Shown here piece by piece: positions 61,200 through 63,774 of a DNA stretch of 64,000 bases. Below the pieces are notes generated by a model that saw only the letters and a list, made by a program, of their open reading frames with translations, did not search any database and was not told where the DNA came from. Origin of the DNA: Halorientalis sp. IM1011 (lineage in GTDB: Archaea; Halobacteriota; Halobacteria; Halobacteriales; Haloarculaceae); NCBI RefSeq assembly GCF_001989615.1, contig NZ_CP019067.1, positions 1,922,001-1,986,000 of the forward strand, given 5' to 3'. Position numbers and translations under genes: made by a program. Position 1 is the stretch's first letter. Each line of letters begins with the position of its first letter.

Positions 61200-61290
61200 C
61201 GGCGACGGCTTCGCTGCTAGCGGTAAAAAGCGTCGTGGTGTCACCCGGCTCGTCGAGGCCGCTCGACGATATCTTGATTCAGCGAGAGAA

Positions 61291-61358
61291 TCCCGCCCTT
61301 CCCGTGAGGGACGAGTGTTCCGACGCTTAGTCGGAACCGAGGACCGAACAGGGCGGGA
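61291..61358. repeat. Left structured element: outer stem with two inner hairpins
   Basis: TCCCGCCCT (61291-61299) pairs perfectly with AGGGCGGGA (61350-61358). Inside it lie TCCC-GTGA-GGGA (61300-61311) and GTTCCGAC-GCTTA-GTCGGAAC (61317-61337). The flanks read GAGAA before and GTGAATCG after. The arrangement parallels the element at 62757-62823 and could be a relic right end of another copy, a left end, or a small RNA. Confidence 0.7.
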
Positions 61359-61459
61359 GTGAATCGCGTAACCTTCGATACCCAGCCGACATTGTTCCTC
61401 CCAGCAGGATATTCCACGCCGACCGAAAGATTAAGTCATTGTGCTGTCATAGGCTATGT

Positions 61460-62716
61460 ATGGTGAATCTGGTCACGACCCGCACCATTACAGCTGCACT
61501 CACCAACGACCGTGAGAGTGTCGTGTGTGACCTTGATTCACTCGCTCGTTCCGGCAGTAAAATCTGGAACGTCGCTCGGTGGACTGCTGGCCGCATCTGG
61601 GACGAAACCGGTGAGATACCCGATGAAGGACCGCTTAAGTCCTACATGAAGAACCAACCGTGCTGGAAAGATTTGAACGCCCAATCAAGCCAGGCAATCA
61701 TCGAAGAATTGGCTGGCGCTTTCCAGTCCTGGTTCGAACAAGACAACCCAGACGCCAACCCACCGGGCTACCGCAAACACGGCGACCAACGACCACGCTC
61801 AACAATCACGTTCAAAGAAGACGGCTTCAAACTCGACACCAAACACGAGCAGGTCCGACTATCGAAAGGGCAAAACCTGAAAGACGGCTGGAGTGACTTC
61901 ATCCTCTGCGAATACGATACCGGTCCAGACGCAGACCTGACTGCCGTCGAAGACGTGCAACAGGTCCGCATCGTCTGGACCGGTGAGCAGTGGGAACTGC
62001 ACTTTGTCTGTAAAGTTGCCATTGACGCCACTGACTTGTCTGGCGAGAAGACGGCTGGTGTTGACCTCGGTATCTGCAACACGGCGGCTGTCTCTGTTGG
62101 TGACGAGACGCTGTTGTATCCGGGGAACGCTTTGAAGGAGGACGCCCACTACTTCCGCCAGGAAGAATACGATACGGAAGGAGAAAACGGTCCCAGCACC
62201 CATGCTGAGTGGGCACGCCAGAAGAAATCACGGCGGCAGACCCACTTCCTGCACGCACTCTCGAAAGACATCGTAGAGCAATGTGCAGACCGTGGCGTGG
62301 AGACGATAGCGGTTGGACATCCGAAGGACATTCGTGCGAATGAAGACTGGGGTCGTCACGGGAACAAGCGTCTGCACGATTGGGCGTTTGAAACGGTGCT
62401 GAGTCACATCGAGTACAAGGCTGAAGAACGTGGTATCGAGGTAGAGCGTGTTGACGAGTACGAGTTAGCCACGTCGATAACCTGCTGTGCGTGCGGGATG
62501 AAAGCCGATTCGAACCGTGTCGAGCGTGGCTTGTACGTGTGTGAGAACTGCAAACTGGTCGCTAATAGCGACCTGAATGCGGCGGAGAATATGCGGGCGA
62601 CGGTAACTCCGAGTCCTGCTGAGGATAGGAGTAACGGCTGTCTGGCCCAGCCTTCGGTGCGCCTGTTCGATACATCGACGGGGAGAGTAGCCCCTCAAGA
62701 ACAGGTCTACCCGTAG
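61460..62716 (+). CDS. tnpB: TnpB, RNA-guided nuclease of an IS1341/IS605-type element
   Basis: 418 aa. TnpB is a guide-RNA-directed nuclease, the ancestor of Cas12. RuvC-I is AGVDLGICN with Asp202. RuvC-III is NSDLNAAENM with Asp371. The zinc ribbon uses C342-x-x-C345 and C361-x-x-C364. In the RuvC-II region the usual V-E-D-L reads AVGHPKDIR (284-292), so the standard catalytic Glu is not at its place; nearby E295 or other acids might substitute. GRHGNKRLHDWAF and HIEYKAEERGIEV match haloarchaeal TnpBs. The start ATG at 61460 (MVNLVTTRTI) was preferred over 61439, which precedes it without similarity. Confidence 0.92.
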   Translation: MVNLVTTRTITAALTNDRESVVCDLDSLARSGSKIWNVARWTAGRIWDETGEIPDEGPLKSYMKNQPCWKDLNAQSSQAIIEELAGAFQSWFEQDNPDANPPGYRKHGDQRPRSTITFKEDGFKLDTKHEQVRLSKGQNLKDGWSDFILCEYDTGPDADLTAVEDVQQVRIVWTGEQWELHFVCKVAIDATDLSGEKTAGVDLGICNTAAVSVGDETLLYPGNALKEDAHYFRQEEYDTEGENGPSTHAEWARQKKSRRQTHFLHALSKDIVEQCADRGVETIAVGHPKDIRANEDWGRHGNKRLHDWAFETVLSHIEYKAEERGIEVERVDEYELATSITCCACGMKADSNRVERGLYVCENCKLVANSDLNAAENMRATVTPSPAEDRSNGCLAQPSVRLFDTSTGRVAPQEQVYP

Positions 62717-62832
62717 ACCGGCAAATATCCCAACGCTTGCGGTGCGGTTCGGGAAGCCTCGCCGTCGTCGGGCTACGCCCGACTGCTTGAGGGAGCTTCG
62801 CTCCCTCTCCGTTTACGGCGAGGAGGAGGTCA
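62717..62832 (+). ncRNA. Predicted 3' part of the TnpB guide RNA (omega/reRNA) and right end
   Basis: TnpB guide RNAs are made from the 3' end of the tnpB transcript and stop at the element's right end, with the guide taken from flanking DNA. Here the stretch holds CCTCGCCGT (62757-62765) pairing with ACGGCGAGG (62815-62823). Enclosed are GTCGGGC-TAC-GCCCGAC (62767-62783) and GAGGGAGC-TTC-GCTCCCTC (62789-62807). The guide would begin near 62833. The 5' limit of the RNA, probably inside tnpB, is unknown. Confidence 0.5.
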
Positions 62833-63774
62833 CAGGCTGTACGTGTCGAACTTGGCAGTGACGACGCCTGCGCGGCCGTTCTGTTCCACCTTCACGTTCC
62901 GGGCCCGGGCGAACGTACCGCTGTTGTCGTTGGCCTCGATCCAGTCGTTGAGGTCGCTCGTGTTCACGTCGCCCTCGCCGCTGAAGACGAACACCCACTG
63001 GCGTTTCGTCGTGTCGCCGTTGACCGACAGGGACTCGCCGTTCGCCACCTGCCCCTCGAAGATGCCCGACTCGGCGTCGGCCTGGTCGGAACTGACCTCG
63101 TCGCTCCGGGTCTCGGCGCTAATACTGGTTCCACTGTCGAGCGTGTTCACGAGCGTCGAGAAATCGTCGTTGTTGCTCGTGGCGCGTGTCCCGTTGCCGC
63201 CCTTGGTGTCGATGATTCCCTCGACGACGTCCGTGGCCGACACAGCGTCCCAGTCGGAGCCAAACGGCGGTTCGACGCGCTGTCCGAAGACGATGGCGCT
63301 GTCGGCGACGGCCACTGCCTGTCTGACCGTGTCCGCGTCCGACGGCACGTACACCTCGTAGCCGCTGTAGTTCCCGTCGCTCTCGAACTCGGTGTTCGTG
63401 TCGTCTTCGAGTTCGGCGACCACCTCGCTCGTATCGTAGGATCCCTTGAGGACGCGCCCCTGGGGGAGCCTGAGATCCATGCTCACGTCCCGTCCGATCA
63501 GGCCGACCGTACTGTAGGTCCCCCTGAGCGCTCTGTACGTGTTCGGGTAGAACGACTTCCGGTTCTCGTAGATGGCCTGCTGATTCGTCACGTTGACGCT
63601 CATCCCGTCGGCGTCCTGATTGAACTGGTCGGCCGGATAGGCCCACTGCTGGTAGTCGCCCAGTCCACCGCCGCCGACGAACGGGATGGCGTCCGTGACC
63701 GCGTTACACCCTGCGAGCGCACCTGTACCCACCACAGCACTGGCGGTGAGAAACCGCCGACGTGTCTGTTCCAT
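62830..63774 (-). CDS. Tat lipoprotein of unknown function
   Basis: 314 aa. The signal TRRRFLTASAVVGTGALAGC ends with a lipobox Cys near residue 23. The mature domain has no recognised motif. It shows alternating strand segments and two halves: about 40-150 (YQQWAYPADQF, LIGRDVSMDLRL) and about 155-310 (AVADSAIVFGQRVEPPFG, RQWVFVFSGEG). The TGA stop (62830-62832) lies exactly at the predicted right end of the IS1341-type element, so the natural C-terminus may have been longer or slightly different. The start at 63772-63774 (MEQTRRR) is standard. Confidence 0.75.
   Translation of the reverse strand: MEQTRRRFLTASAVVGTGALAGCNAVTDAIPFVGGGGLGDYQQWAYPADQFNQDADGMSVNVTNQQAIYENRKSFYPNTYRALRGTYSTVGLIGRDVSMDLRLPQGRVLKGSYDTSEVVAELEDDTNTEFESDGNYSGYEVYVPSDADTVRQAVAVADSAIVFGQRVEPPFGSDWDAVSATDVVEGIIDTKGGNGTRATSNNDDFSTLVNTLDSGTSISAETRSDEVSSDQADAESGIFEGQVANGESLSVNGDTTKRQWVFVFSGEGDVNTSDLNDWIEANDNSGTFARARNVKVEQNGRAGVVTAKFDTYSL

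Follow-up and report, generated by a model that had tools for sequence, protein, structure and literature searches.

The two small hairpins near the right end of a tnpB element in Halorientalis sp. IM1011 probably (we would put this at roughly 70%) represent a small mobile repeat that sits at the tips of the palindromes of IS605-type transposons and PATEs, spreads within the genome and is tolerated in a loop of the TnpB RNP. The right end itself should thus be reread as a scaffold that ends in a simple stem, with the apparent enlargement being a separate, spreading sequence. An earlier note on this DNA had taken the two hairpins as an enlargement of the guide-RNA scaffold, a view that was not supported, since the insert is absent in most close relatives and present in tnpB-less elements and left-end palindromes. 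The window, i.e. the whole stretch of DNA that was analysed, comprises 64,000 nucleotides, and the features relevant here are the following (positions within the window):

61269–61272, + strand: presumed target or TAM position, ATAT, assigned by comparison (predicted TAM)
61273–62833, + strand: IS1341-type (tnpB-only) IS200/IS605 element of 1561 bp, C-TTGAT...GGTCAC, delimited by the conserved ends of relatives and the empty site of the copy L025
61282–61367, + strand: near-terminal palindrome of the left end with 18-nt arms that are 78% complementary, enclosing further hairpin sequence
61460–62716, + strand: tnpB, intact frame of 418 amino acids with the Pfam domains OrfB_IS605 and Cas12f1-like_TNB
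62601–62774, + strand: match to Rfam RF02656 (sot0042), overlapping the 3' end of tnpB (E 1.7e-16, 66.9 bits)
62757–62823, + strand: 9-bp stem at the right terminus, predicted to be the final stem of the omega-RNA scaffold; its tip carries the insert
62757–62765 (CCTCGCCGT) with 62815–62823 (ACGGCGAGG), + strand: outer stem, 9 of 9 positions paired, from folding and comparison
62766–62811, + strand: double-hairpin cassette of 46 nt, CGTCGGGC..CTCTCCG, inserted at a UUYA tetraloop and absent in most relatives
62767–62773/62777–62783, + strand: hairpin 1 of the cassette, 7 bp, loop TAC (a 3-nt loop that varies among relatives)
62789–62796/62800–62807, + strand: hairpin 2 of the cassette, 8 bp, loop TTC
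62830–62833, + strand: TCAC, right end of the element, from the shared ends of relatives and the L025 site
62834–62849, + strand: predicted 16-nt guide AGGCUGUACGUGUCGA in the flanking host DNA, by analogy to ISDra2 (PMC8612924) and from the L025 boundary

The limits of the element and the start of its guide were carried over from L025, a close copy in Halorientalis regularis for which uninterrupted homologues in sister genomes provide the empty site. The gene hit there appears from its sequence to be epimerase-like, and the site reads ...GAG-CTAT|CC-GCGCAGG..., with CTAT as the target, an element running from CTTGAT to GGTCAC and no duplication; a one-base ambiguity at the junction (a shared C) was settled by the ends that all copies share. 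In two genus relatives (L091 and L092), the same prephenate-dehydratase-like and lipoprotein genes have no element between them. The flanks of these two align with those of the window and bracket its own empty site, and the diverged intergenic DNA blurs the junction; for this reason L025 served to determine the TAM. The window has ATAT at the target position, where almost every relative of the CTAT group has CTAT. In relatives from many haloarchaeal genera, the 3' flanks align through GGAGGAGGTCAC or GGAGGATGTCA and diverge immediately after. The element has palindromes at both ends and, as judged from the L025 site, inserts 3' of a short motif without duplication, in the manner of the IS200/IS605 family. 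The proposal of a tnpB right end was borne out by the tnpB domains, the ends shared among relatives and the empty site of L025. Here a lipoprotein gene on the − strand converges with tnpB on the + strand. Its product is clipped by a few residues at the C-terminus by the insertion (DTYSL, compared to DTYDLFR or DTYNLFR in sister genomes), and its stop codon, TGA on the opposite strand, is supplied by the TCA of the element at 62830–62832.

The minimum free energy (MFE) structure of 62717–62832 consists of exactly the outer stem and the two hairpins (−53.3 kcal/mol), confirming base for base the earlier description of a 9-bp stem enclosing two hairpins (7 and 8 bp), each with a loop of 3 nt. The coordinates given for this fold were also correct; the right boundary, set at 62832, was one base short of the element end at 62833. 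The energy of the fold (z = −2.07, with 6 of 200 shuffled sequences equally stable) was rejected as weak evidence, since 15% of random 116-nt pieces from the GC-rich window fold equally well. When upstream tnpB sequence was added, hairpin 2 paired with the 3' end of tnpB in a competing structure that can become the MFE structure, and the probability of the outer stem varied between 0.11 and 0.76 with the assumed start of the RNA. That the fold is more than chance is indicated by comparison instead. Among 72 distinct homologous sequences, pairing is kept in 96.5% of cells (at most 92.4% in shuffles) and two-sided changes occur in 81 cells (at most 35 in shuffles). The latter affect all three helices and include compensatory exchanges at outer pair 3 (T-A/G-C/C-G), in hairpin 1 (T-A to C-G) and near the loop of hairpin 2 (T-A/G-C/C-G). 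Such compensatory changes could, however, also stem from hairpin-templated repair and not from selection.

Homology gives good support for reading the outer stem as the final stem of the predicted 3' omega-RNA/reRNA scaffold. The sot0042 family, a haloarchaeal tnpB sense-overlapping transcript which is now called omega-RNA, has a right-end hairpin in Halobacterium (PMC12558985). Its match in the window, although below the gathering score of 88, indicates together with 3' flanks conserved up to GTCAC that a conserved scaffold overlaps the 3' end of tnpB and reaches the right end of the element, as expected of an omega-RNA. A plain haloarchaeal right end reads CCTCGCCG-TTTA-CGGCGAGG, followed by the end GGAGGTCAC, a layout as in ISDra2, where a UUUA tetraloop (−20 to −17) joins the crRNA-like and tracrRNA-like halves and, by cryo-EM, is disordered (PMC10097598). 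According to the earlier note, the whole fold was the 3' scaffold, and relatives whose 3' flank lacks the outer stem would have spoken against this. The relatives were found to share that stem, which together with the sot0042 match upholds this part of the proposal; the inner hairpins, being an optional insert, have to be taken out of it. The guide, previously expected to start near 62833, is predicted by the L025 site to follow directly after TCAC, at 62834. An Rfam HgcC match at 62764–62846 (21.4 bits) was rejected as a family assignment.

The two inner hairpins constitute a discrete insert of 47 nt if one flanking T is counted. TnpB relatives that are 86–93% identical keep the outer stem and close it by a 4-nt loop, and comparison of the window with L017, whose TnpB is 93% identical, yields a single clean 47-nt insertion at the tetraloop. 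A survey of right ends using the pattern GGGAARCC-N-GGAGGAKGTCAC gave 266 comparable ends in 194 haloarchaeal genomes. The short class accounts for 227 of these (a sum of per-genome counts), and essentially all of its members among the matches listed are plain 16-nt stem-loops closed by UUYA. The remaining 39 ends form a long class, 37 of them with the cassette, in some cases slightly changed, and two, both from genome G054, with another double hairpin. Real intermediate or longer forms were not found in this survey, the next longer class being one spurious match. Insertion of the cassette adds no more than one T to the target, and a target duplication never exceeds 1 bp. The orientation is uniform, with a GTCA end downstream in the same orientation in 84 of 89 copies (five copies in another context were set aside). 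The tip reads CCGT in 70 of the 89 copies, and the cassette still ends in CCG where the stem reads TCGT, GCGT or CTGT; it therefore has fixed ends of its own instead of being copied from the stem. These ends, CGTC..CCG, form no terminal inverted repeats, and the cassette has no coding capacity.

The distribution of the cassette is patchy and linked to the genome. Its pattern was present in 46 of 391 haloarchaeal genomes and in 21 of 86 genera, and a reversed control pattern had no match in the same 391 genomes. We collected 94 distinct copies, which have the same ends throughout Halobacteria. A tnpB frame lies directly upstream in about 41 of them; many others are accompanied, within 700 bp, by a left end only and correspond to tnpB-less PATE-like elements. 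In L064 and L110 a left end is fused to a right end, L115 has the cassette in a left-end palindrome, L111 has two double hairpins in tandem within a left end, and in L074 the cassette occurs twice in tandem. Several TnpB families, tnpB-less elements and left-end palindromes are hence carriers of the same unit. On a quick tree of TnpB proteins, its presence or absence requires 10 changes, and at least 7 of these are forced by well-supported branches. Between unrelated ends of the same genome, cassette identity is 0.920, compared to an expected 0.882 ± 0.007, and none of 5000 permutations was as high; between genomes, cassette identity has no link to the identity of the flanks (r = 0.07). The cassette sequence thus follows the host genome and not the element, which argues for independent spread within genomes by transposition or gene conversion, and the similarity within genomes could reflect gene conversion only. 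Copies were also present on 14 haloarchaeal plasmids (PLSDB); none were found in phage records or, by exact pattern, in viral contigs. One context of the cassette, represented by L079 and others and here called the Halorubrum type, is not an IS605 end and counts against a confinement to IS605 tips.

According to the reading that we prefer, the cassette, non-coding and without target duplication, would colonise the tips of IS605-type and PATE palindromes. The region would then have two roles, at the RNA level as the stem with which the TnpB omega-RNA scaffold is predicted to close before the guide begins at 62834, and at the level of single-stranded DNA as the near-terminal palindrome used in IS200/IS605 transposition. 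From one end to another of the same genome, the cassette might be passed on when palindromes recombine, or a Y1 (HUH) TnpA might move it by acting in trans on single-stranded DNA, two routes between which we cannot choose; the genome has four intact Y1 TnpA genes of its own, and core deletions between left and right palindromes have been documented (PMC3119063). We infer this movement and have not seen it, as no pair of strains with a plain and a filled version of the same insertion was found. The cassette would persist at its site with the scaffold core and the guide junction left intact, and its tolerance by TnpB is suggested by the position of the site in a loop which is the flexible, unresolved tip of the TnpB RNP. 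Tentatively, it might even be speculated that this minimal 47-nt mobile unit, inserting into the hairpin loops of transposon ends, rides within an unbroken TnpB guide RNA and may modulate TnpB or TnpA in trans across a genome; if so, a 47-nt unit within a putatively transcribed guide RNA would be the natural counterpart of an aptamer inserted into an sgRNA tetraloop.

The hairpins might alternatively act on the DNA by altering how Y1 TnpA recognises the right end, so that the cassette would either be selected or silence the element, as has been proposed for SMR-A. We regard this as rather unlikely, although palindromes of both the left and the right end carry the cassette, as do tnpB-less elements, for which TnpA has to act in trans, the genome has intact TnpA genes, and SMR-A has been proposed to inactivate IS605-type elements (PMC3119063). 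With regard to silencing, the cassette-bearing L015 adjoins its own tnpA, so transposition is not obviously stopped, and the near-identical copies L151–L153 at different sites of one genome argue against silencing being complete. It is less probable still that the hairpins enlarge the omega-RNA functionally and co-evolved with TnpB, for example for RNA stability, 3' processing or TnpB binding. The insert is in the transcribed orientation and placed in the last scaffold stem, and its helices are kept by compensatory change, all of which would fit a role in the RNA; however, TnpBs 86–93% identical to that of the window lack the cassette, many copies are in tnpB-less elements and some in left ends outside any omega-RNA, and the cassette sequence tracks the genome and not TnpB. 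We consider it quite improbable that the cassette is ancestral and was lost repeatedly by replication slippage across its hairpins. Tip hairpins favour slippage, and CCGT on both sides of the cassette in 61 of 89 copies makes a precise loss plausible, but this would not account for the similarity between unrelated ends of a genome, the unchanged CCG end also in TCGT or GCGT stems or the sporadic occurrence in at least four distantly related TnpB families, and the tandem pair in L074 and the left-end copies require gains. Finally, a bidirectional transcription terminator, which the strong GC hairpins between the convergent tnpB and lipoprotein genes might bring to mind, is hardly credible and was rejected, since archaeal termination depends on U tracts and no T-run follows the structure on either strand, and since the structure belongs to the element and occurs beside unrelated genes.

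In the TnpB protein that would use this scaffold, Pfam domains PF01385 and PF07282 were found above cut-off, as is characteristic of an IS200/IS605 (IS1341-type) element, and RuvC-I residue D202, RuvC-III residue D371 and the zinc ribbon are all present. The canonical RuvC D-E-D triad is nevertheless incomplete: with D202 and D371 retained, the residue aligned with the RuvC-II glutamate is a glycine (G286), and glycine or serine occupies this position across the whole clade, whereas other TnpBs of the same genome retain the glutamate. D202, D296 and D371 are (nearly) invariant within the clade, and D296 might, judging from the alignment, serve as a substitute catalytic acid; an AlphaFold2 model was unusable for this question (mean pLDDT 45.6). 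TnpBs with a rearranged RuvC-II exist and at least one of them cleaves DNA (PMC10278001), so nuclease activity of the glutamate-less TnpB remains conceivable by analogy.

Among known systems, the cassette most resembles SMR-A of Haloquadratum walsbyi, repeats within near-terminal palindromes (HqIRS42, HqIRS43 and HqIRS55; PMC3119063). Both are short and non-coding, cause no target duplication and reside in the near-terminal palindromes of IS605-type transposons or PATEs. SMR-A was, however, described from Haloquadratum with a length of about 110 bp and prominent terminal inverted repeats (PMC3119063), whereas the cassette, with a length of 47 nt, contains two hairpins, lacks terminal inverted repeats and extends over 21 of 86 sampled haloarchaeal genera. 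As the behaviour at the target site agrees and length and inverted repeats do not, we refer to the cassette as SMR-A-like and not as SMR-A. A gap-pattern search of Haloquadratum genome G417 gave no recognisable case of SMR-A among the matches inspected. Like the CGTC-tagged REP elements, the cassette is a short palindromic repeat that starts with CGTC and has no dedicated transposase. Those elements are single palindromes scattered between genes, mostly in alpha-proteobacteria, and are defined by a single stem of 8–9 bp, a loop of 4–5 nt, A-T pairs first and a CCA tail (PMC3733652). The cassette consists of two unlike hairpins located in transposon ends, and with their 7 and 8 bp, 3-nt loops and G-C first pairs its membership in that group was rejected.

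On the RNA side, the window shares with the haloarchaeal omega-RNA/sotRNA (RF02656 sot0042; PMC12558985) the overlap with the 3' end of tnpB, the right-end hairpin and the match at 62601–62774; it differs in a score below the Rfam threshold and in a right-end stem enlarged by the cassette. Similarly, in the ISDra2 TnpB omega-RNA/reRNA (PMC8612924, PMC10097598) the scaffold ends at the right end, the guide follows directly and UUUA closes the last stem. In contrast to ISDra2, the window has a 47-nt double hairpin in the tetraloop, the TAM position reads CTAT or ATAT and not TTGAT, and the TnpB of the window has no canonical RuvC-II glutamate. The open-access literature searched described neither the 47-nt unit nor any natural insert in the tetraloop of a TnpB omega-RNA. 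The cassette would provide a natural, class-wide example of the scaffold of an RNA-guided nuclease with a foreign structured sequence at an sgRNA-like tetraloop. It also revives a question dating from 2011, namely how small mobile repeats target IS605-type palindromes, for which it appears useful as a very short unit that has a precise target loop (CCGT | TYACGG), inserts in one orientation and allows plain and filled ends to be compared in many cases.

Double-hairpin inserts of other sequence were observed as well. The two long-class ends of genome G054 (G054:C12:70-160 and G054:C16:6871-6961) have a different 55-nt insert (ATCAGAACAC...TGTGAC) in the same right-end loop. Left-end palindromes are bimodal among relatives, being either plain with 17–18 nt or 62–74 nt long, and the longer ones hold other double-hairpin inserts, some of which form recurrent sequence families; the left ends examined besides that of the window (61282–61367) were those of L003, L014, L033, L086, L141 and L157. 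The Halorubrum-type context (L079, L082, L083, L084 and L136, around 1400–1900) is a multi-hairpin region in several genomes of one genus, probably Halorubrum. No Rfam match was obtained for this region, which has the conserved blocks GAGCACGCGCGAGG, GAGGCTGGGGAGGYGTGAGG, GGGACTCAAAGGGGCAG and GACGTAAGCACC and holds a near-copy of the cassette along with other double-hairpin inserts. In L061 and L086, further double-hairpin inserts are located upstream of the cassette at the same right end, in the preceding hairpin of the scaffold.
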